Positions 11,099 through 36,158 of a DNA stretch of 64,000 nucleotides are shown here, piece by piece (the stretch's first letter is position 1; each line of letters begins with the position of its first letter). The stretch spans positions 620,001-684,000 of the forward strand of contig NZ_JARUBP010000001.1 in NCBI RefSeq assembly GCF_029626225.1. Reading direction: 5' to 3'. The notes under the pieces were generated by a model that was not told the DNA's origin, made no database searches, and was given only the letters and a program-made list of their open reading frames with translations. The stretch comes from Asanoa sp. WMMD1127 (lineage in GTDB: Bacteria; Actinomycetota; Actinomycetes; Mycobacteriales; Micromonosporaceae). Made by a program: the position numbers and the translations under genes.

Positions 11099-12042
11099 CG
11101 GATGGCCTCCACGGGCTGGTTGGCGCCGGTCAGGGCGAAGAAGACGTCGTCGAGGTCGGGGGTGTGCACGGTGAGCTCGTCGGCCTCGATGCCGGCCGAG
11201 TCGAGGAAGCCGAGGATCGAGCGGAGCTCGCGCTGGCTGCCGTCGCTGGCGATCCGCAGCGCGAGCGACTCGTCGTCGCGGCCGGCGTCGGGCAGCGCCA
11301 GGGCGGCCGACTGGTAGGCGACCGGGTCGGTGAACCGCAACCGGACGTGCCCGCCGGGGATGAGCCGCTTGAGCTCGTCGGCGGTGCCCTCCGCGGCGAT
11401 CTTCCCGGCGTTGAGCACGGCGATCCGGTCGGCGAGCTCGTCGGCCTCCTCGAGATATTGGGTGGTGAGGAAGACGGTGGCGCCGTCGGCGACCAGGCCG
11501 CGGACGATCTGCCACATGTTGTGGCGGCTGCGGGGGTCGAGGCCGGTGGTGGGCTCGTCCAGGAAGATGATCCGCGGGTTGCCGACCAGCGTCATGGCGA
11601 GGTCCAGCCGGCGCTTCATCCCGCCGGAATAGGTCGAGGCCGGCTTGCGCGCCGCGTCGACCAGGTCGAAGCGCTCCAGCAGCTCGGCGGCGACCCGGCG
11701 GCCCTGGCGCTTGGACAGGTGGTGCAGGTCGGCCATGAGGAGCATGTTCTCCTCGCCGGTGATCAGGTTGTCGACGGCGGAGAACTGGCCTGTGACGCCG
11801 ATGGCGGCGCGGACCGCCTGCGGCTCGGTGGCCAGGTCGTGGCCGCCGACGCGGATCTCGCCGGAGCCGGGGTCGGCCGAGATCAGCGTGGAGAGGATCT
11901 TGACGGCGGTGGTCTTGCCGGCGCCGTTCGGGCCGAGCAAGGAGAAGATCGTTCCCTCGGGTACGGCGAGGTCGACTCCGGCGAGCACGACTTTGTCGCC
12001 GTACGACTTGCGTAGGCCGTACGCCGCGATGGCGTTTTTCAT
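11095..12042 (-). CDS. ABC exporter ATPase, DrrA-like
   Basis: 315 aa. Walker A is GPNGAGKTT, the signature is YSGGMKRRLDLA, Walker B is IIFLDEPTTGLDP, and TTQYLEEADELADRI is the H-loop region. The C-terminal ~80 residues form the DUF4162 tail common in DrrA-type ATPases. The ATG at 12042 (KNAIAAYGLRKSYG) is preceded by AAGAGG. It powers the coupled permease and lies 10 bases after the GNAT gene on the same strand, so the three are likely one operon. Confidence 0.92.
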   Translation of the reverse strand: MKNAIAAYGLRKSYGDKVVLAGVDLAVPEGTIFSLLGPNGAGKTTAVKILSTLISADPGSGEIRVGGHDLATEPQAVRAAIGVTGQFSAVDNLITGEENMLLMADLHHLSKRQGRRVAAELLERFDLVDAARKPASTYSGGMKRRLDLAMTLVGNPRIIFLDEPTTGLDPRSRHNMWQIVRGLVADGATVFLTTQYLEEADELADRIAVLNAGKIAAEGTADELKRLIPGGHVRLRFTDPVAYQSAALALPDAGRDDESLALRIASDGSQRELRSILGFLDSAGIEADELTVHTPDLDDVFFALTGANQPVEAIR

Positions 12043-12052
12043 GACAAACCTC

Positions 12053-12841
12053 TTAAGGCAGGACGAGCTCGTACCTGTTGGTACGGCCGAACGGGCGGAA
12101 GCCGAGGTGTTCGCGGACGGCGAGCAGGCGCGCGTCGTCCTCGGCGGTGACGGTTTCGATCTCGTTGACGTGCGGGTGGTGCGTGCGGAGGCGCTGGACG
12201 AGCGCGGCGTTGACCCAGCGGGCCAGGCGATGTCCGCGGTGGCCGGGCAGCACGGCCGGCCCGTACTGCCGGGCCCGAGGCGGGTCGGAGTCGCCGACGA
12301 CGGCCACCGCGAAGGCCGCCGGGCCACCCCCGCCGCCCGCCTCGGCGACGGTCAGCAGGGCGCTGCCCGGACTGCTCGGACGACGCAGCAGCTCGTCGAC
12401 CCCGGCCGCGGCGGAGAGGTCGCCGGTCCAGTGCGTCAGCCGGTAGCCGGCGTGCTCGGTGTCGACCAGCTCACCGAGCCACGCCCCGTGCACATCGCAG
12501 TAGGTCAGCAGGTCGTGGCGCCGGGATCCGGTGTGCCGGAAGCCGTGCCGCCGACAGAACGCCTCCCCCGGTGAGCCGGCGACCACGTCCGCGAGCAGGC
12601 GCGGCCCGGCGGCCTGCGCCCGGGCGGCGGCCAGGAGCTGGGAGCCGACCCCCCGTTGACGCCACGCCGGCTCCACGTGCAGGCTCAGCTCCAGGCCGCC
12701 CGACTCCAGGCGCGGCGGCGGATCCGGCCCCAGGGCGACCACCGGCCGCAGGCTCACCACTCCGGCCGACCCGTCCGGCACCATGGCCCGCCACCGCAGG
12801 GCCGCCGGATCGGCCACGATCTCGATCAGGGCTTCACTCAT
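12053..12841 (-). CDS. GNAT acetyltransferase with two GNAT-like domains
   Basis: 262 aa. The first domain carries the acetyl-CoA loop RQRGVGSQLL; the second has GHRGHRLARWVNAALVQRL and ends NRYELVLP. This tandem layout resembles mycothiol-synthase-like or Eis-unrelated GNAT pairs seen in actinobacteria. Substrate unknown. The ATG at 12841 is preferred; the frame is open to 12877. Just upstream of the DrrAB-like exporter and divergent from a LysR regulator, suggesting a resistance unit. Confidence 0.75.
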   Translation of the reverse strand: MSEALIEIVADPAALRWRAMVPDGSAGVVSLRPVVALGPDPPPRLESGGLELSLHVEPAWRQRGVGSQLLAAARAQAAGPRLLADVVAGSPGEAFCRRHGFRHTGSRRHDLLTYCDVHGAWLGELVDTEHAGYRLTHWTGDLSAAAGVDELLRRPSSPGSALLTVAEAGGGGGPAAFAVAVVGDSDPPRARQYGPAVLPGHRGHRLARWVNAALVQRLRTHHPHVNEIETVTAEDDARLLAVREHLGFRPFGRTNRYELVLP

Positions 12842-28096: not shown

Positions 28097-28561
28097 CTAA
28101 CGGCGACTCGCGTCCTGGCGGCGGAGGGACGGCCAGCGCACGGCCAGGGCGACCGCGCTCAAGCCGAACAGAGCACCACTCACCGCGACCCAACGCACCG
28201 CGTACGAGATGCGGGGTTGGCCGGTCGCCGCCTGGTAGGTCGCTTCGCCCAGGTCGAGGATGCCCGGCAGGAAGACCAGGAACAGCAGGGCCGCGGCCAG
28301 GGCGGGCGCGCGGAGGTGGTTGAGGACCGCGCGGCGGGTGGCGGTGCCGGTGCCCGTCGCGCGGGTGAGGAGACCGTCGGCCGCCGCGTAGAGCGGGAAC
28401 AGGATCAGGTCGTGGAACACCGCCGCGCCGATGAACCAGAGGGCCATTCGCCATAGGGTTGGCTCGCCCCAGAGGTAGAACACCGACCAGCCCGCCAGGG
28501 TGAAGCAGCCCAGCAGGAGCAGGGCGTGCGGTGTGCCGGCGCCGTAGAAGCGGTCACGCAT
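28097..28561 (-). CDS. Small membrane protein coupled to the molybdoenzyme
   Basis: 154 aa with four hydrophobic segments, family not recognised. HALLLLGCFTLAGWSVFYLW is the first, and the third contains LLFLVFLPGILDLGEATY. H47-type residues occur in AAVFHDLILFPLYAAADG. The ATG lies 8 bases inside the molybdoenzyme gene, so the two are co-translated. It could be a membrane anchor or electron-transfer partner; nothing in the sequence proves this. Confidence 0.75.
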   Translation of the reverse strand: MRDRFYGAGTPHALLLLGCFTLAGWSVFYLWGEPTLWRMALWFIGAAVFHDLILFPLYAAADGLLTRATGTGTATRRAVLNHLRAPALAAALLFLVFLPGILDLGEATYQAATGQPRISYAVRWVAVSGALFGLSAVALAVRWPSLRRQDASRR

Positions 28562-29759
28562 CGCGGAACTCGATGCGGGCGACCCACTTCGTGCAGTGCA
28601 CGCCCGGCAGCGCCGGCACGATGACGCGGGCCGGGTAGCCGTGGTCGGGCGACAGGTCCGCGCCGTTGACCCGCAGCGCGAGCAGCGCATCCCGGTCGGC
28701 GACCTGGTTGGCCTGCAGCGTCGCCTGGCGGAACAGGCCGCCGCGCTCCAGCGACACCACGTGGGCCGACGCCGGGTCAGGCACGCCGGCGAGCGCCGCC
28801 AGGTCCGCCAGGCGTACGCCGGTCCAGGTCTGCATGGTGGACCAGCCCTCGACGCAGGCGATCGGCAGCCGCGCGGTGTGCTGCGTCATCGCCAGCAGCG
28901 CGGCCCGGTCGAGCGACACGGGCCGTGCGCCGCCCGTCAGCGTCAGCCGCCAGCCCGCTCCGGTCGAGGCCGGCTCGATGCCCGCCGCCGCGGCGCTCCG
29001 GTTGACCTGGAAGCCGTTCGGGCCCCGGCCCGGGTTCTCGCCCCGCGGCAGCAGGAGCGCCGTGCGCCGCAGCGGGCCGTCGAGGTGCTGCCCGACCGTG
29101 AGCAACGCCAACAGCAGCGAGCCGCCGCCGGCCAACGCGAGCACGCCTCGCCGGCTCATGGTCCGCGGCCCAGGAGCGGCCTCGGGGTCGCGGTGGCGCA
29201 GCGCGGACACCAGCCGCGGCAGCTTCAGCGCGACGTGGGCGACGAACGCGCCGATGAACACCCACGCGCCGAAATAGTGGGCGGTGTAGAAGTCGAATCC
29301 GAAGAGGTACGCGTACTGGATGTTCAGCACGCCCGTCACGATCTCGAAGAGGATGCCACCGACGAGCAGCAGCAGGGAGAGCCGCTCCAGGACCTGCGCG
29401 AGCGACCGCGCCGGCGGCCACACGAACAGCTTCGGGATCACCGACCAGAGCTTCGCCAGCACGATGGGGATCAGCACGATGCCCAGGCCGACGTGCAGGC
29501 CCTGGGTCAGCCGGAACAGCCACGACGGCCGGGTGGGCCAGTCGAACGGCGGCAGCCGCAGCCAGCCGACCTCCAGCGGGAACGCCTGATGGAACTGCGG
29601 GCCGTAGGCGGCATAGTCCAGCAGCCCGGTGACGATCACCAAGGGCAGGGCGACGAGCAGGACGAGTCCCAGTAAGGAAGTCAGCCGCGGACCACGCACC
29701 GGGCTGCGCCAGCGCCGGTCCAGCGGACCATCCGACCGTCGATCGTCCAAGGCGGACAA
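28554..29759 (-). CDS. Cytochrome b-like membrane domain fused to sulfite-oxidase-fold molybdoenzyme
   Basis: 401 aa. Four membrane segments in residues 26-180 carry spaced histidines (H57, H89, H161, H175) that could bind two b hemes. A twin-arginine-like segment follows (MSRRGVLALAGGGSLLLALL, 201-220). The C-terminal half (~245-401) is an oxidoreductase molybdopterin-binding domain with the Mo-ligand cysteine C302 in IACVEGWSTMQTWTG. A TTG start is chosen: AGGAGGT sits 6 bases upstream. Predicted to pass electrons between quinones and an external Mo site, but without a known substrate. Divergent from the epimerase gene at 29896. Confidence 0.85.
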   Translation of the reverse strand: MSALDDRRSDGPLDRRWRSPVRGPRLTSLLGLVLLVALPLVIVTGLLDYAAYGPQFHQAFPLEVGWLRLPPFDWPTRPSWLFRLTQGLHVGLGIVLIPIVLAKLWSVIPKLFVWPPARSLAQVLERLSLLLLVGGILFEIVTGVLNIQYAYLFGFDFYTAHYFGAWVFIGAFVAHVALKLPRLVSALRHRDPEAAPGPRTMSRRGVLALAGGGSLLLALLTVGQHLDGPLRRTALLLPRGENPGRGPNGFQVNRSAAAAGIEPASTGAGWRLTLTGGARPVSLDRAALLAMTQHTARLPIACVEGWSTMQTWTGVRLADLAALAGVPDPASAHVVSLERGGLFRQATLQANQVADRDALLALRVNGADLSPDHGYPARVIVPALPGVHCTKWVARIEFRDA

Positions 29760-29788: not shown

Positions 29789-29845
29789 AGGCTATGCGGA
29801 CCCGACGGCGCCGGACCGTGTTTGCGCCCTTGCGAACTCCTTACG
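29789..29845. promoter_or_regulatory. Divergent promoter with GTAAG/GCAAG response-regulator motif, site 1
   Basis: The minus strand of 29828-29845 reads CGTAAGGAGTTCGCAAGG: two pentamers (GTAAG, GCAAG) starting 11 bases apart, the spacing of OmpR-family binding sites. TAGCCT (complement of 29789-29794), 34 bases beyond on the minus strand, is a candidate -10 for the molybdoenzyme operon. On the plus strand TACGCT (29883-29888) lies 7 bases before the epimerase ATG. Confidence 0.6.
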
Positions 29846-29895
29846 GATCGCCCGATCCGCCGCGCGCCGGCCCGGACGTTCCTACGCTCGACGGC

Positions 29896-30975
29896 ATGCG
29901 GGTACTGGTGACGGGCGCGGCCGGTTTCGTCGGGTCGCACGTGGTGGATCTGCTCGTGGAACAAGGGCACGAGGTGGTGGCGCTCGACGCCCTGCTGCCG
30001 CAGGCGCACGGCGGCGAACTGCCCGAGTGGTCGCGACGGCACGACGTCGTGCGGGGCGACGTGCGCGACGCCGACCTGCTCGACCGGCTGCTGTCCGGAG
30101 TGGACGCCGTCTGCCACCAGGCGGCGATGGTCGGCCACGGCCTGGATCCTTCGGATGCGCCCGACTACGCCAGCCACAACGACTACGCCACCGCGGTGCT
30201 GCTCGCCGCGATGCACCGGGCCGGCACCCGCCGGCTGGTCCTGGCGAGCTCGATGGTGGTCTACGGCGAGGGCCGCTACCGGTGCCCGGCCCACGGCGTC
30301 ACCCGGCCCGCCCCGCGCACGGAAGCCGACTTGGCCGCCGGCCGCTTCGACCCGACCTGTGGCGCGTGCGGCGCCACGCTGACGCCCCAGCTGGTGCCCG
30401 AGGACGCCCCGCTCGAACCCCGCAGCACCTATGCCGCGACCAAGCTGGCGCAGGAACACCTCGCCGCGGCCTGGGCCCGGCAGACCGGTGGCGCCGTCTG
30501 GGCTCTCCGCTACCACAACGTCTACGGGCCCCGGATGCCGCGCGACACCCCTTATGCCGGTGTCGCCGCCATCTTCCGCTCGGCCCTCGCCGCCGGCCGG
30601 CCGCCCCGGGTGCTCGAGGACGGCCGGCAGCGCCGCGACTTCGTCCACGTCACCGACGTGGCCCGCGCGAACCTGCTCGCCCTCGCCACGCCCGCCCCCG
30701 ACGCGCTGGTTCCCGTCAACGTCTGCTCCGGCGAGCCGCACACGGTCGGCGATCTCGCCACGGCGCTCGCCGACGCCATGGCCGGCCCGATGCCGCTGGT
30801 GGTCGGCGGCGCCCGGGCAGCCGACGTGCGGCACGTCGTCGCCGACCCCCGCCGGGCCACCGAACTGCTGGGCTTCACGGCCCGCGTCAGCTTCGCCGAG
30901 GGTGTCGCCGCCTTCGCCGTCGACCCGCTGCGCGCCCCGGCCGCGGTCAGGACACCGTCCAGAGCAGATGGTTGA
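29896..30975 (+). CDS. NAD-dependent sugar epimerase/dehydratase with zinc-ribbon-like insert
   Basis: 359 aa extended SDR. GAAGFVG (7-13) binds NAD; the catalytic pair is Y179 and K183 in STYAATK. Between strand 5 and YxxxK is an insert with C130, H133, C155 and C158 (CPAH...CGAC), a likely zinc site not found in typical GalE/RmlB proteins. NVYGPRMP and RRDFVHVTDVA are standard sugar-epimerase segments. The -10-like TACGCT 7 bases before the ATG suggests a leaderless mRNA. It opens the plus-strand side of a glycan/molybdoenzyme cluster. The last 29 bases overlap the convergent gene. Confidence 0.88.
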   Translation: MRVLVTGAAGFVGSHVVDLLVEQGHEVVALDALLPQAHGGELPEWSRRHDVVRGDVRDADLLDRLLSGVDAVCHQAAMVGHGLDPSDAPDYASHNDYATAVLLAAMHRAGTRRLVLASSMVVYGEGRYRCPAHGVTRPAPRTEADLAAGRFDPTCGACGATLTPQLVPEDAPLEPRSTYAATKLAQEHLAAAWARQTGGAVWALRYHNVYGPRMPRDTPYAGVAAIFRSALAAGRPPRVLEDGRQRRDFVHVTDVARANLLALATPAPDALVPVNVCSGEPHTVGDLATALADAMAGPMPLVVGGARAADVRHVVADPRRATELLGFTARVSFAEGVAAFAVDPLRAPAAVRTPSRADG

Positions 30976-32278
30976 CCGCCAGCGCGGTGAGCGCCTGACC
31001 GGCCAACCACCAGCGGTGCGTACGCGCCGGCAGCAGCGCGACCGCGGCCAGCGCCCATACGGCGAACGGCAGCCAGATCCGTTCCACCTCGGCCTTGCTC
31101 ATGCCGGACAGGTCCGCGCCGACGACCGCGAGCGCACCGGCCAGGGCGAGCAGCACCACCGGCGACCGTTCACGTAGCCCGGCCACCGCCCGCCGCAGCG
31201 CCGGACCGACCACCGGGCCGGCCGAGACGACGAACGCCGCCAGGTTGGCCCAGACCCAGTACGCGTAGGGCCGCTCGGCCGCCCAACCCTGGTTGTAGCG
31301 CCGCACCACCAGCTCGTAGCCCTCCCACCAGTGGAAGCCGGCCACCGTGAAGGCCACCACGACGGCGGTGACACCGGCGGCGCCGGCGAGCAGGGCGGCC
31401 ACGCGGCGGTCGCGCCGGCACACGAGCGCCGCCACGGCCAGCACGCCGGCGAGCACGAAGCCGTAGGAGAGATAGAGCGCGAAGCCGAGCAGCAGCCCGC
31501 CGCCGACCGCCAGCGCGGGACCGCGGGCCACCAGGAGCGCGACGCCGGCCGCCACCACGGCGGCGAAGATGCCGTCGGCGGAGGCGCCCACCCAGACCGC
31601 GCCGGGCAGCAGCACCAGGAACGGCACGGTCGCCCGGGCGGCGTCGGGCGCGCCCAGCGCCCGCAGGGTCACCGGCACCGAGACGGCCACCGTCGCGCCG
31701 ATCAGCACACAGGCGAGCCCGGCCGCGGCGCCGCCGCCGAGCCCGATGCGGTCGAGGAACACGAACAGCAGCAGGGCGCCGGGCGGGTGCCCGGCCGTGT
31801 GGGTCGACCAGGACCCGGGTTGGAAGTCCAGGATCCGATCGGCGAACCCGGCCAGCAGCGCCCCGATGTCGGTCACCCGCGGCACCTCGGTGAGGTACTC
31901 CGCCTGCGGAGTCAGTCGCTCGGCGAGGCCGGCCGACCAGCCATCCACCATGGACAGCGCGAGCGTCCAAGCCACCGAGCCCAGCCAGGCGGCGCCGAGC
32001 AGTGTGCCCCAGCGCGCGGTGCGCGCCCACGGCACACCCCAACCGATCACCGCACCGGCGATCAGCACCGCGGCCGGCGTGCCCCAGCCGACGTGCGGCT
32101 GCCAGGTCGCGAACAGCGGCGCGGCATCCGCGTGCAGGCCCACGCCGCGCCGGTTGAGCAGGAGACCGACCACCACCGCGGCGCCGAGCAGCACCGCCTC
32201 GGTGCCGAGCACGACGAGGTCGGCGGCGATCGGCCGGCGGGTCCGGGCGCGCTCCGGCGGCGCGGTGACGACAGCCAT
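30947..32278 (-). CDS. Polytopic membrane protein, probable lipid-linked-sugar glycosyltransferase
   Basis: 443 aa with about 11-12 membrane segments. The first external loop has the long soluble stretch after VDGWSAGLAERLTPQAEYLTEVP, then STHTAGHPPGALLLFVFLDRIG, resembling GT39/GT87-like (GT-C) mannosyl-type transferases that use polyprenyl-phosphate sugars. An exact family is not assigned. The ATG at 32278 is 8 bases past TACGTT, a possible leaderless promoter. It shares a divergent promoter region with the GT2 gene, so polymer building on a lipid carrier is inferred. Confidence 0.7.
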   Translation of the reverse strand: MAVVTAPPERARTRRPIAADLVVLGTEAVLLGAAVVVGLLLNRRGVGLHADAAPLFATWQPHVGWGTPAAVLIAGAVIGWGVPWARTARWGTLLGAAWLGSVAWTLALSMVDGWSAGLAERLTPQAEYLTEVPRVTDIGALLAGFADRILDFQPGSWSTHTAGHPPGALLLFVFLDRIGLGGGAAAGLACVLIGATVAVSVPVTLRALGAPDAARATVPFLVLLPGAVWVGASADGIFAAVVAAGVALLVARGPALAVGGGLLLGFALYLSYGFVLAGVLAVAALVCRRDRRVAALLAGAAGVTAVVVAFTVAGFHWWEGYELVVRRYNQGWAAERPYAYWVWANLAAFVVSAGPVVGPALRRAVAGLRERSPVVLLALAGALAVVGADLSGMSKAEVERIWLPFAVWALAAVALLPARTHRWWLAGQALTALAVNHLLWTVS

Positions 32279-32360
32279 GACGATCGAACGTAACCGCCGC
32301 ACGGCCCCGGGCAGGGCCGAACCCGGCTCCTGTCACCGGATGGTAAGAACCACGGCCGGC

Positions 32361-32416
32361 GGTAAGGGATCGGTAATCCGCGAACGCCGACGGCGGCCGG
32401 TGCGGGCCCATAGCGT
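32361..32416. promoter_or_regulatory. Divergent promoter with GTAAG/GTAAT response-regulator motif, site 2
   Basis: GTAAG (32362-32366) and GTAAT (32373-32377) start 11 bases apart in GGTAAGGGATCGGTAAT. A third copy, GGTAAG, lies at 32342. TAGCGT (32411-32416), 33 bases after the pair and 6 bases before the GT2 ATG, is a candidate -10 giving a leaderless mRNA. The spacing matches site 1 to within one base. Confidence 0.6.
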
Positions 32417-32422
32417 CGAAGC

Positions 32423-33118
32423 ATGCCGACTCCGTCCAATGCCGACAGCCACGCGATCGACGTGGTGCTGCCCTGCCTCGACGAGGCCGCCGCGCTGCCC
32501 GGTGTGCTGGCCGCGCTGCCGCCCGGCTACCGGGCGATCGTGGTGGACAACGGATCCCGCGACGGTTCGCCGGAGGTGGCGGCCCGGTGCGGGGCCACGG
32601 TCGTGCACGAGCCACGCCGGGGGTACGGCGCCGCGGTGCACGCCGGCCTCGCAGCGGCCGGGACGGACGTCGTCTGCGTGCTGGACGCCGACGGCTCGTT
32701 CGACCCGGCCGAGCTGGCGGCGCTGGTGACGCCCGTGCTCGCCGGTCGCGCGGATCTGGCGGTCGGCCGGCGGCGCCCGGTCGCCCGCGGCGTGTGGCCG
32801 TGGCACGCGCGGGCCGGCACCGCGCTGGTGGCCGCCCTGCTGCGCCGGCGCGGCGTACCGCTGCACGACCTGAGCCCCATCCGGGCCGGCCGGCGCGAGG
32901 CGCTGCTGGCCCTCGGCGTCCGCGACCGCGCCTTCGGCTATCCGTTGGAGCTGCTGATCCGGGCCGCGCACGCGGGCTGGCGGATCCACGAGATCGACGT
33001 GCGCTACGCCCCGCGCGCCGCCGGCACCCGCTCCAAGGTCTCCGGTTCGGTGCGCGGCACGCTCCGGGCGACGCGCGACTTCGCCGCCGTGCTGCGTACC
33101 GTCGGAGTGCCCCGATGA
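32423..33118 (+). CDS. Family 2 glycosyltransferase
   Basis: 231 aa GT-A fold. The N-terminus IDVVLPCLDEAAALPGVLAAL, then VVDNGSRDGS and the metal-binding DAD (88-90, VLDADGSFDP) are standard for GT2; RRGYGAAVHAGL is the nucleotide-binding loop region. No membrane segment. It transfers a sugar from a nucleotide donor, possibly to a polyprenyl phosphate as DPM1-like enzymes do. Its stop overlaps the DUF2064 start (ATGA), beginning a tightly coupled chain of three genes. Confidence 0.88.
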   Translation: MPTPSNADSHAIDVVLPCLDEAAALPGVLAALPPGYRAIVVDNGSRDGSPEVAARCGATVVHEPRRGYGAAVHAGLAAAGTDVVCVLDADGSFDPAELAALVTPVLAGRADLAVGRRRPVARGVWPWHARAGTALVAALLRRRGVPLHDLSPIRAGRREALLALGVRDRAFGYPLELLIRAAHAGWRIHEIDVRYAPRAAGTRSKVSGSVRGTLRATRDFAAVLRTVGVPR

Positions 33119-33786
33119 CCGTCCTCCTGGTGATGGCGAAGGCGCCGGTGCCCGGCACGGTCAAGACCCGGCTCTGCCCGCCGGCGACCCCGGAGCAGGC
33201 CGCCCGGATCGCGTCCGCGGCCCTGCTCGACACCGCCGAAGCGGTCCAGGGCACGACCGCGCTGACACCGGTGCTCGCCTGCGCGGGCCGGCTGCGGGCC
33301 GGGGTGGCGGGAGAGGCGCTGGTCGCGGCGTTCGCCGGCTGGCGGGTGCTGCCGCAACGCGGCGCCGGCCTGGGCGACCGCCTCGCCAACGCGCACGCCG
33401 ACGTGGCGACGGCCTTCCCGGGTCGCGCGGTGCTGCAGATCGGCATGGACACGCCACAGCTGAGCCCGGACCTGCTCGACGCCGCGGCCCGCCGGCTCGA
33501 CGACGCTTCCGCCGTGCTCGGCGCGGCCGCCGACGGCGGGTGGTGGGCGCTCGGTCTCCGCGACCCGCGGCATGCGACGGTCCTGCGCGCGGTGCCCATG
33601 TCCACACCGGACACCGGCCGCCGCACCCACGCGGCGCTGGAGAGCCGCGGACTGACGGTCGCGTCACTGCCCGTGCTGCGCGATGCCGACGAGTGGCCGG
33701 ACGCGCTGGCGGTGGCCGCGGCGGCGCCGGGCGGCCGGTTCGCCCGTGAGGTCGCCGCCGTTCGCGCCACCCTCGTGTCCGGATGA
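33115..33786 (+). CDS. DUF2064/TIGR04282-family GT-A fold protein
   Basis: 223 aa. VMAKAPVPGTVKTRLCPP at the N-terminus and AADGGWWALGL are family hallmarks, resembling sugar nucleotidyltransferases. The family occurs with GT2 genes in many bacteria and has been linked to arsenosugar loci by name only; here arsM is 25 kb away, so I do not infer that. Probably makes or transfers an activated sugar together with the adjacent GT2. Overlaps both neighbours by 4 bases. Confidence 0.85.
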   Translation: MTVLLVMAKAPVPGTVKTRLCPPATPEQAARIASAALLDTAEAVQGTTALTPVLACAGRLRAGVAGEALVAAFAGWRVLPQRGAGLGDRLANAHADVATAFPGRAVLQIGMDTPQLSPDLLDAAARRLDDASAVLGAAADGGWWALGLRDPRHATVLRAVPMSTPDTGRRTHAALESRGLTVASLPVLRDADEWPDALAVAAAAPGGRFAREVAAVRATLVSG

Positions 33787-34406
33787 CCGCGACCGGCTTC
33801 GCCGCGGCGCTCCGGGGCGACCCCGCCTGGCTCGTGCACGACGACGGGCGCCGCCAGCGCCTGCCCGTGCGGCGCTGGCACGCGACCGCCGAACCGGAGA
33901 CGGCGGCCGTGGTGAGCCGGTGCACCGGCCCGACCCTCGACCTGGGCTGCGGGCCGGGCCGGTTGACCGTGGCGCTGGCCCGGGCCGGGGTCACCGCGCT
34001 CGGGGTCGACGCCAGCGCCGAGGCGGTCGCCATCGCCCGGTCCCGCGGCGCGGTCGCCATTCACCAGGACCTGTTCGCGCCGCTGCCCGCCGAGGGGCGC
34101 TGGGCGCACGCCGTGCTGCTCGACGGCAACATCGGCATCGGCGGCGACCCGGTGGCCCTGCTGCTTCGCTGCCGGGCCCTGCTGCGACCGACCGGCACGG
34201 TGCTCGTCGAGCTCGACGGCCCCGGTACCGGCTTCTGGCGCGGCCACGCTCGGGTCGCCTCCTCGGCGCTCGGCCCCCGCTTTCCCTGGGCGCGGCTGGA
34301 CACCCGGTCCGCGGTGGGCATCGCGGCCGCCGCCGGGCTCGTGGTCCGGGAGATCGCCCACCGCCGCGACCGCTGGTTCGCCGAGCTGCTCGTGGACGCG
34401 ACGTAA
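33783..34406 (+). CDS. Class I SAM-dependent methyltransferase in the glycan cluster
   Basis: 207 aa. The SAM loop LDLGCGPGRLTV is at ~52-63, then VTALGVDASAEAV (motif II). The C-terminal RDRWFAELLVDA is common in the methyltransferases of this conserved neighbourhood. It could cap or decorate a glycan. The ATG overlaps the previous stop (ATGA). Its own stop lies inside the response-regulator motif that precedes the next gene. Confidence 0.85.
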   Translation: MTATGFAAALRGDPAWLVHDDGRRQRLPVRRWHATAEPETAAVVSRCTGPTLDLGCGPGRLTVALARAGVTALGVDASAEAVAIARSRGAVAIHQDLFAPLPAEGRWAHAVLLDGNIGIGGDPVALLLRCRALLRPTGTVLVELDGPGTGFWRGHARVASSALGPRFPWARLDTRSAVGIAAAAGLVVREIAHRRDRWFAELLVDAT

Positions 34407-34446
34407 GAAGCTGGCAAGGATCGCCCCCGCCCACCGTGGCTACGCT
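34402..34446 (+). promoter_or_regulatory. Promoter of the two-component system with GTAAG/GCAAG motif, site 3
   Basis: CGTAAGAAGCTGGCAAGG (34402-34419) has GTAAG and GCAAG starting 11 bases apart and matches site 1 at 15 of 18-19 positions. TACGCT (34441-34446), 22 bases further, is the likely -10; GGGGAGG then precedes the ATG at 34466. The site would overlap the -35 region, the place for an OmpR-type activator, giving autoregulation. Confidence 0.6.
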
Positions 34447-34465: not shown

Positions 34466-35158
34466 ATGCGGCAACGCGTACTCGTGGTCGACGACGACCA
34501 GACGGTAAGCGACGTCATCTGCCGCTACCTCGACCACGCCGGCTACGCGGTAGCGCACGTCGGCGACGGCGCCGCCGCCCTGGAGGCGGTCCGCCGCGAG
34601 GCACCGCAGCTGGTCGTGCTCGACGTGATGCTGCCGACGATCAGCGGCCTGCAGGTGTGCCGTGAGCTGCGCTCCACGCCCGACGGCGTACCGATCATCA
34701 TGCTGACCGCCCGTGGCGACGAGGCCGACCGCGTGCTCGGCCTGGAGCTGGGCGCCGACGACTACCTGACCAAGCCGTTCTCTCCCCGCGAGCTCGTGCT
34801 GCGGGTCGGCTCCGTGCTCCGCCGCGCCGGGGCGCCCGCGGCGCCGGCCGCCGAGGTGCTCCGGGACGGCCCGCTGGAGGTGCTGACCGGGCCGCGGGTG
34901 GTCCGCCTGGGCGCGGCCGAGCTGACCCTGACGTTGCGCGAGTTCGACCTGCTGGCCCACCTGATGCGCCACCCGGCCCGCGCCTTCACCCGCGCCGAGC
35001 TGCTCGAACAGGTCTGGGGCTGGACGTTCGGCGACCAGTCGACGGTGACGGTGCACGTGCGCCGGCTGCGGGAGAAGATCGAGGCCGACCCGGCCGACCC
35101 GCGGCGCATCGTGACGGTGTGGGGCGTCGGCTACCGCTACGAGCCGGCCGATGCGTGA
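34466..35158 (+). CDS. OmpR/PhoB-family response regulator
   Basis: 230 aa. The receiver has D10/D11, phospho-acceptor D53 (VVLDVMLP), T81 and K103 (LTKPFSP). The winged helix (~135-225) ends in TVHVRRLREKIEADPADPRRIVTVWGVGYRY. GGGGAGG precedes the ATG. Followed by its kinase with an 8-base overlap. The shared GTAAG motif in three nearby promoters makes it the likely regulator of the whole 28-36 kb cluster. Confidence 0.94.
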   Translation: MRQRVLVVDDDQTVSDVICRYLDHAGYAVAHVGDGAAALEAVRREAPQLVVLDVMLPTISGLQVCRELRSTPDGVPIIMLTARGDEADRVLGLELGADDYLTKPFSPRELVLRVGSVLRRAGAPAAPAAEVLRDGPLEVLTGPRVVRLGAAELTLTLREFDLLAHLMRHPARAFTRAELLEQVWGWTFGDQSTVTVHVRRLREKIEADPADPRRIVTVWGVGYRYEPADA

Positions 35159-36158
35159 CCTCGCCCTGATCTTCGCGATCGCCCTGGCCGCGGCGCTGGC
35201 CGTGGGCCTGGCCGCCGCCCTGCTGCTGCGCCTGCTCCGGCGCCGCTCGATCCTCGTGCACCTGACCGTGCTGCTCACCGCCACGGTGCTGGCCGTGGCC
35301 GGCGGGGTGGCCGCGGTCGCCGAGGCGATGTTCCTCTCCGCCCACGACCTCGAGGTCGTGCTGATCACGATCGCCGCGGCGGCCGCCGTCAGTCTCGGCG
35401 TCGGCTGGCAGTTCGGGCGGCGGCTGGCCCGGGCCGCGGTCTGGGCCGACCAGGCTCGGGATCGGGAGCGGCGGCTGGAGAAGAACCGCCGGGACCTGGT
35501 GGCCTGGGTCTCGCACGACCTGCGTACCCCGTTGGCCGGTCTCCGCGCCATGGCCGAGGCGCTGGAGGACAGGGTGGTCAGCGACCCGGCCACGGTCGCC
35601 GAATATCACCGGCGGATCCGGCTCGAGACCGACCGGATGAGCCGGCTCGTCGACGACCTGTTCGAGCTGTCCCGGATCAACGCCGGCGCGCTGCGGCTGT
35701 CACCGACGGCGGTCGGCCTGGGCGAGGTGGTCTCCGACGCGCTCGCCACGGCGGCGCCGCTGGCGTCGGCCCGGCGAATCAAGCTCGTGGCGCCGGAGTC
35801 CGGCTGGCCGACGGTCACGGCGAGCGAGCCCGAGCTGAGCCGGGTGGTCGCCAACCTGCTGCTCAACGCGGTGCGGTATACGCCCGACGACGGCACCGTC
35901 CGCGTCGAGGCCGGCCACGAACCCGACACCGCCTGGCTGGCCGTCGCCGACAGCTGCGGTGGCATCGCCGCGGCCGACCTGCCGCGGCTGTTCGACGTGG
36001 CCTTCCGCGGCGAGTCGGCGCGCACCCCGGACAACGGCGCCGGCGGCGGGCTGGGCCTGGCGATCGTGCACGGCCTGGTGCAGGCCCACGGCGGCTCGGT
36101 GGACGTGCACAACACCGCCGACGGCTGCCGTTTCGTGGTCCGTCTACCGGCGGCCTGA
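35151..36158 (+). CDS. Sensor histidine kinase
   Basis: 335 aa. Two membrane segments (~5-28 and ~36-58) and a third at ~68-88, with almost no extracytoplasmic domain, so it probably senses a signal in or near the membrane. The H-box SHDLRTPLAG has H122; the N-box is NLLLNAVRYTPDD and the G-box GGGLGLAIVHGL. No HAMP domain is obvious. Overlaps the response regulator by 8 bases and the convergent squalene-cyclase-like gene by 15. Confidence 0.92.
   Translation: MRDLALIFAIALAAALAVGLAAALLLRLLRRRSILVHLTVLLTATVLAVAGGVAAVAEAMFLSAHDLEVVLITIAAAAAVSLGVGWQFGRRLARAAVWADQARDRERRLEKNRRDLVAWVSHDLRTPLAGLRAMAEALEDRVVSDPATVAEYHRRIRLETDRMSRLVDDLFELSRINAGALRLSPTAVGLGEVVSDALATAAPLASARRIKLVAPESGWPTVTASEPELSRVVANLLLNAVRYTPDDGTVRVEAGHEPDTAWLAVADSCGGIAAADLPRLFDVAFRGESARTPDNGAGGGLGLAIVHGLVQAHGGSVDVHNTADGCRFVVRLPAA

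Follow-up and report, generated by a model that had tools for sequence, protein, structure and literature searches.

Four copies of a short direct repeat lie in the promoter regions of one gene cluster in a 64,000-nucleotide stretch of the Asanoa sp. WMMD1127 genome (contig NZ_JARUBP010000001.1, positions 620,001 to 684,000; hereafter the window), and this repeated DNA word is very probably the docking site of the sensor-response pair encoded beside it. The motif is conserved among relatives, obeys a spacing rule and covaries with the gene for the response regulator (RR) of that pair, at 34466..35158. Judging from sequence comparisons, we consider it highly likely that the sites are operators of this RR and define an autoregulated regulon of the OmpR family. 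Site 1 (29829..29844, minus strand; GTAAGGAGTTCGCAAG) lies between the divergent genes for a molybdoenzyme and a sugar epimerase/dehydratase (SDR), site 2 (32362..32377, plus strand; GTAAGGGATCGGTAAT) lies in the promoter of an operon for a GT2 glycosyltransferase, and site 3 (34403..34418, plus strand; GTAAGAAGCTGGCAAG), which is putatively autoregulatory, lies in the promoter of the genes for the RR and its sensor histidine kinase (HK). The initial annotation had reported these three, at 29828-29845 (minus strand), 32361-32377 and 34402-34419, and all are found there as exact 16-mers whose half-sites start 11 bp apart; the 15 positions it found shared by sites 1 and 3 were also recovered (15 of the 18 bases in an 18-base span, counted by eye). 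Absent from that annotation was a degenerate member of the same motif, site 2b (32332..32347, plus strand; GTCACCGGATGGTAAG), which stands 30 bp upstream of site 2 and brings the total to four sites for five promoters.

The pattern GTAAG-N6-GYAAK has three exact matches in the window, as against 0.03 expected, and none of 100 shuffles reaches three. Because the pattern was derived from these very sites, the genome-wide count is a fairer test of chance: there are six matches in 7.97 Mb, three of them within 4.6 kb here, and the backwards control pattern has seven. A relaxed pattern that accommodates site 2b occurs three times in the window versus 0.79 expected, which is not rare on its own; site 2b therefore carries weight because it is conserved, not because it is rare. 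That a pattern-seeking reader had simply picked chance pentamers from 64 kb gains something from the choice of the pattern after the sites were seen, but it is refuted by the conservation tests described below, with the genome count, the letter-permuted controls and the spacing also against it, and we regard it as vanishingly improbable.

To follow the motif through the family, we compared the window with the loci of 45 relatives, hand-picked to give a 46-genome set; the RR itself is found at an E value of 1e-75 or better in 236 of 300 family genomes. The genes of the cluster occur in several orders and orientations, and in most of the 46 genomes the motif tracks the promoters of the RR, GT2 and molybdoenzyme genes, an association that survives at least four gene orders. 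Within 250 bp of the gene start, the RR gene has an exact site in 31 of 46 genomes and a site with at most one mismatch in 43, of which 42 are forward (the match in G047 is reversed and was not counted as a site). Exact sites precede GT2 in 20/23 genomes and the molybdoenzyme gene in 13/21, or 15/21 when two genes with a misplaced start are included; the six genomes that lack a molybdoenzyme site (G001, G002, G003, G119, G071 and G058) have the gene next to that of the methyltransferase, where the GT2 run ends. Genes internal to the operons have a site in just one of 93 upstream windows (methyltransferase 0/24, DUF2064 1/24, kinase 0/45), and this sole match belongs to the DUF2064 gene of G001, which there heads its own unit. 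Across the 46 scaffolds the motif has 74 matches, whereas 300 letter-permuted patterns average 0.8 (sd 2.0, largest 25). The initial annotation had allowed that its motif might prove equally common at random positions, or not be conserved in relatives that keep the cluster; neither was found, and the motif is kept in rearranged clusters as well.

The sites are also positioned regularly with respect to -10-like hexamers, which are present at all five promoters of the window: TAGCCT for the molybdoenzyme gene (29789..29794, minus strand), TACGCT for the SDR gene (29883..29888, plus strand), TACGTT for a gene encoding a putative membrane transferase (32287..32292, minus strand), TAGCGT for the GT2 operon (32411..32416, plus strand) and TACGCT for the RR/HK operon (34441..34446, plus strand). 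The SDR and membrane transferase genes are probably leaderless, starting at 29896 and at an ATG at 32278, respectively. Because hexamers are found on the SDR and membrane transferase sides as well, the two site regions appear to be divergent double promoters, with site 1 reversed relative to the SDR gene and site 2b reversed relative to the membrane transferase gene. With distances taken between the first bases of site and hexamer, in promoters with a site, the spacings are 50 bp (molybdoenzyme), 54 bp (SDR), 55 bp (membrane transferase), 49 bp (GT2) and 38 bp (RR); the gaps of 33-34 or 22 bases given earlier for sites 1 to 3 correspond to 34, 33 and 22. The hexamer patterns were chosen after the alignment had been inspected, and with shuffled flanks such a hexamer turns up 0.5-2% of the time.

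Across the relatives, these distances fall into discrete classes. The 42 RR promoters divide into 21 with a spacing of 37-39 and 21 with a spacing of 48-50, with nothing in between, while the spacing is 50 in 15/15 molybdoenzyme promoters with a site and 49-50 in 20/21 GT2 promoters. Among the 21 GT2 promoters there are 20 matches to a second site 28-30 bp further upstream. For reversed sites, the spacing to the SDR hexamer is 54-55 in 13 of 21 genomes and 45 in one, and that to the membrane transferase hexamer is 54-56 in 17 of 22, the remaining genomes having no such pair in either case. Two values one helical turn apart thus recur in each orientation, about 38 or 49 for forward sites and 44 or 55 for reversed ones, so that the one-turn difference noted earlier in the window holds over dozens of genomes. 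If the operator consists of two 11-bp units, each with its pentamer on the 5' side, these values place its edge 16, 27-28 or 39 bp from the -10 hexamer, on one face of the helix. With the hexamer starting at -12, the operator centre would fall near -39, -50 or -62, and either orientation would set a bound dimer on the same helix face relative to RNA polymerase.

This geometry bears on the direction of control. Strict one-turn spacing is typical of activators that touch RNA polymerase, and repressors need it less. At the five promoters of the window, the best sigma-70 -35 candidates match only one to three of the six bases of TTGACA, and a promoter scan returned no promoter-like pairs. The RR might instead bind and repress, or repress some promoters and activate others, as could be argued from the sites 38 bp from a -10, which overlap the -35 region, and from the fact that sequence cannot show direction; the strict spacing classes and the lack of a -35 match at any of the five promoters point the other way, and we judge repression, at all or some of the promoters, to be unlikely. 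Activation by the RR is thus the reading we prefer.

The motif also led to a further predicted member of the regulon, a gene for a DM13-domain electron-transfer protein. In two genomes from other genera (G058 and G120), the RR gene directly follows a DM13 gene and the site stands before the latter; the protein of G058 matches PF10517 with 104.8 bits. Of 24 genomes searched, 14 have relatives of this protein, encoded outside the cluster in 11 of these 14, and an exact site precedes the gene in 10 of 14, or 13 of 14 if one mismatch is allowed (permuted patterns: exact mean 0.055, largest 1). The only DM13 gene without a site is that of G236, a genome without the RR. The distances from site to start codon form two groups, 50-51 and 60-64. 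In the strain studied here, the gene is likewise unlinked (C1:5348886-5349434, locus L395), with a one-mismatch site, GTCATCACTCGGTAAG, near C1 5348833, 50 bp before the start.

A class-wide search of 296 genomes found RR matches at 1e-70 in 116, and the best 30 of these 116 loci were taken; three (L007, L129 and L147) are the window or belong to the same family, leaving 27 outside it. A generalised form of the site precedes the RR gene exactly in 17/27 and with at most one mismatch in 25/27, always reversed. The putative autoregulatory site is thus forward in the family (window 34403-34418) and reversed in all 25 carriers outside it (L130-L157). When permuted patterns were run on 26 out-of-family loci, the mean was 0.06 exact matches (largest 6) and 0.77 with one mismatch (largest 23), and 0 of 200 reached the observed value. 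A -10-like hexamer lies at 44-45 in 10 of the 25 loci, at 54-56 in 10, at 52 in two and at 40 in one, with none in two; in three of the 25, another hexamer also falls within range. GT2 and DUF2064 also stand beside the RR in several out-of-family loci.

Loss of the RR gene goes with decay of the site at the GT2 promoter. Among 64 family genomes without an RR match at 1e-75, GT2 is present in 37 (8/20 plus 29/44). Twenty of these 37 loci were fetched and 18 scored, two (G217 and G016) being left out as unclear; seven turned out to have the RR after all, and 11 do not, the absence in G085 being judged from the 1e-75 family search and 18.5 kb of its locus. The seven comprise G006, where the RR is in two reading frames, G154, at a contig end, G259, of whose RR only the first 27 residues lie in the fetched stretch, and four with a diverged RR (G110, G169, G177 and G179; 53-56%). 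In G006 (L271, 5498-6183) the two frames overlap, through either an error in sequencing or a recent break; the adjoining kinase shares 70% identity, and the GT2 site is strong. In the remaining 17 genomes (G053, G069 and 15 of genus g12), where only the region upstream of GT2 was inspected, no site was found. With a matrix built solely from RR and molybdoenzyme sites, we found GT2 promoters to score at least 15 bits in 26 of 30 genomes with the RR versus one of 11 without it (rank test p 7e-6, Fisher p 9e-6; the threshold was chosen after the scores were seen, and both tests ignore relatedness). At 8.8 bits, the 99th percentile of internal windows, the counts are 28/30 versus 4/11 (Fisher p 4e-4, relatedness again ignored). 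In four Micromonospora-like genomes (G274, G158, G264 and G236), comparison with relatives lets the decay be followed one base at a time. Together, comparative genomics, spacing and this decay support the initial proposal that the cluster forms a regulon.

Several observations weigh against the RR as the binder of the sites. A forward site upstream of the RR gene is missing from G030 and G047, G001 and G002 lack a GT2 site, and outside the family L140 and L153 have none before the RR gene. No recognisable site precedes GT2 in 17/17 genomes of genus g12; a diverged RR (53-58%) lies within the fetched locus in 16 of these, and in G016, which was inspected, GT2 lies behind DUF2064. At the 8.8-bit threshold, the four RR-lacking GT2 promoters given above still pass, and among RR-lacking genomes one exact molybdoenzyme site survives in G274 and a single relaxed-pattern site in each of G158 and G236. 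A further exception is G024 (8.2 Mb, two contigs, 98% complete), which has no RR of more than 50% identity and keeps sites at GT2, at molybdoenzyme/SDR and, with one mismatch, at DM13. Its locus (L270, 5158-11226) contains good sites, and neither the RR nor the kinase of the system was found in 19 kb of it, nor an RR orthologue in the genome; a neighbouring gene (11335-12327) looks by eye like an AraC-type regulator.

G024 gives grounds for supposing that the sites mainly serve another OmpR-family regulator, of the RegX3, MtrA, GlnR or AfsQ1 type, and that the neighbouring RR is incidental. The half-sites of MtrA, AfsQ1 and GlnR, described as GTnAC with 5-6 bp spacers in PMC13189361 and PMC6988585, are also close, and because of this resemblance cross-binding is possible. 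Nonetheless, the RR-lacking genomes retain other OmpR-family RRs (best 47-49%; 10 of 11 searched), and yet 10/11 of their GT2 promoters score below 15 bits; in the six whose recognition helix was read (G024, G236, G158, G090, G264 and G274), the best RR match is RegX3-like. Moreover, the core half-site has G rather than C as its fifth base, a site precedes the RR gene in nearly every family genome examined and in 25/27 outside loci, and in G058 and G120 the DM13 and RR genes are adjacent behind one site. We therefore give another regulator little credence and retain the neighbouring RR as the probable binder.

The RR (230 residues, plus strand) has the OmpR/PhoB architecture predicted by the initial annotation, with a receiver domain (PF00072, 110 bits against a cut-off of 30.2) and a DNA-binding domain (Trans_reg_C, PF00486, 96.1 bits against 26.2), and the motif shows the direct repeat of about 11 bp expected of an operator of this family. 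In 72 orthologues, receiver residues D53 and K103 and a T or S at 81 are invariant (72/72), and D10 and D11 are present in 71, the match not covering them in the other. Like MtrA and RegX3, it is an actinobacterial OmpR-family regulator. Its best PDB match is RegX3 (2oqr, E 6e-60), but its predicted recognition helix, STVTVHVRRLREK, differs from that of RegX3 and RegX3-like proteins, TKTLDVHVKRLRSK, at residues 192, 194, 195, 199 and 203, which are kept in 71-72 of the 72 orthologues. The best NCBIfam match, MtrA (NF040689), scores 227.9 bits, under its cut-off of 300, and PhoB (TIGR02154) scores 213.3 bits, under 296.2.

The sites likewise resemble those of known systems without matching any. 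Repeats of 11 bp are familiar among OmpR-family regulators: Mycobacterium tuberculosis PhoP binds a 7-bp motif with a 4-bp spacer, giving an 11-bp period (PMC4832192), and the Streptomyces PHO box consists of 11-nt units (PMC6988585). Regulators of the PhoB/PhoP type share with this RR the 11-bp direct repeat, the expected tandem dimer and the domain architecture, but their half-site is GTTCACC rather than GTAAG, their targets differ, and both orientations are used here. The Streptomyces AfsQ1 site is GTnAC-n6-GTnAC, with AfsQ1 reported to exert no direct regulation of its own expression (PMC6988585), and the MtrA site is GtnAcC-n5-GTnAcn (PMC13189361). AfsQ1 and GlnR sites share with ours the 16-bp length, the 6-bp spacer and the GT-A core, but the core here is GTAAG, with G as the last base, and not GTnAC in both halves; the gene neighbourhood differs too, and unlike with AfsQ1 a site here precedes the regulator gene. 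Site 2b and many sites outside the family have GTCAC in one half. The SCO5282/SCO5283 pair of Streptomyces coelicolor, compared by description only, also combines an OmpR-type RR with a translationally coupled kinase; its kinase has a HAMP domain, which is not among the Pfam matches of the kinase here, and in PMC6629963 the pair is placed in Streptomycineae and not in other suborders. Neither it nor CepRS, each judged from partial descriptions, showed a feature that would make it the Streptomyces counterpart. In the top-ranked titles and abstract openings of a search of open-licence papers, we found no description of this regulon or gene set.

In the mechanism we consider most likely, that of a classical two-component activator, the neighbouring kinase would phosphorylate the RR, which would bind the two 11-bp half-site units (consensus GT[A/C]A[G/C]-N6-G[T/C]AA[G/T/C]) as a head-to-tail dimer and recruit RNA polymerase, activating promoters in which a -10 is present and no -35 is evident. 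Under its control would be its own RR/HK operon, the GT2-DUF2064-methyltransferase operon with the divergent membrane transferase gene, the molybdoenzyme operon with the divergent SDR gene, and the unlinked DM13 gene; we infer that a single membrane or redox signal sets all of these. The targets, a membrane molybdoenzyme, a DM13 protein and polyprenyl-sugar transferases, suggest an extracytoplasmic redox or envelope-glycan function. More tentatively, and with somewhat less than even confidence, we suggest that this is an undescribed two-component system present in many families of the class, which controls a single extracytoplasmic redox and glycosylation unit through an orientation-dependent spacing code and whose kinase reads the redox state of the membrane or envelope. 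That unit would comprise the molybdoenzyme, the DM13 protein, the polyprenyl-sugar transferases, the epimerase and the methyltransferase, and the redox-reading kinase would have few membrane segments and lack a large outer domain. The analysis gives this two-component system, of which the literature search above showed no description, its DNA site, its set of targets and a rule of geometry; it also places the DUF2064 protein, the family-less membrane transferase, the molybdoenzyme and the DM13 protein in a single pathway open to testing. Site decay following regulator loss serves as a natural experiment on how regulons evolve, and the one-turn spacing classes, seen in either orientation, are a ready means of studying activator-polymerase geometry in actinomycetes.

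The remaining genes of the cluster were assigned from domain matches and hydropathy. The HK (35151..36158, plus strand; 335 residues) has HisKA and HATPase_c domains, with no HAMP among its Pfam matches, and its N-terminus has two to three hydrophobic segments with short loops; its gene overlaps that of the RR (35151 versus 35158). On the minus strand lie the membrane-anchored molybdopterin oxidoreductase (28554..29759; PF00174, 90.4 bits, residues 267-400; start codon uncertain) and, downstream of it, a small membrane protein (28097..28690; start uncertain) without a Pfam or NCBIfam match. The NAD-dependent SDR (29896..30975, plus strand) matches PF01370 with 171 bits. The multi-pass protein that we call the membrane transferase (30947..32302, minus strand) has no Pfam or NCBIfam family match and is probably a GT-C-type transferase. 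The GT2 operon, on the plus strand, encodes the glycosyltransferase (32423..33118; PF00535, 76.4 bits), which resembles polyprenyl/dolichyl-phosphate sugar transferases (nearest NCBIfam AglJ, 83.9 bits, under its cut-off of 325), the DUF2064 protein (33115..33786; PF09837, 101.3 bits; TIGR04282, 133.6 against a cut-off of 134) and an S-adenosylmethionine-dependent methyltransferase (33783..34406; PF13649, 41.4 bits).

Other matches in the genome were also considered. A relaxed pattern, GTMAS-N5-S-GYAAK, was set aside as a means of finding the regulon genome-wide, being too noisy without gene identity (189 matches versus 131 for the backwards control in six genus genomes, 1.0-2.4-fold per genome). 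A perfect GTAAG-N6-GTAAG at C1:1924251-1924266 (L041:9252-9267) falls at the 3' end of a different histidine-kinase gene, and a gene that by eye looks lipoprotein-like follows 68 bp further on; the repeat is kept in 6/6 genus genomes. In its strict form it is present in none of the 24 kinase-bearing genomes among 26 searched outside the genus, and the site was rejected as a regulon member. The place reads CTTACC-N5-CGAAC in most Micromonospora-like genomes, including the RR-lacking G274, G236 and G264; because this variant persists where the RR is missing, the site probably belongs to the two-component system of that other kinase. Another site, GTAAGGCCAGCGCAAG at C1:2960281-2960296 (L043), between genes that look by eye like those for a sugar-binding protein and a GH3 enzyme, is kept with variants in 6/6 genus genomes alongside the palindrome CGAAAGTTTCG, but its conservation is uninformative because it lies within a longer, highly conserved intergenic block. 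A further site lies at C1:2439683. Finally, GTAAGGACGCCGCAAG is kept in G001 and G003 (L185 4058 and L194 4011) between two divergent genes that look by eye like SARP-like regulators.

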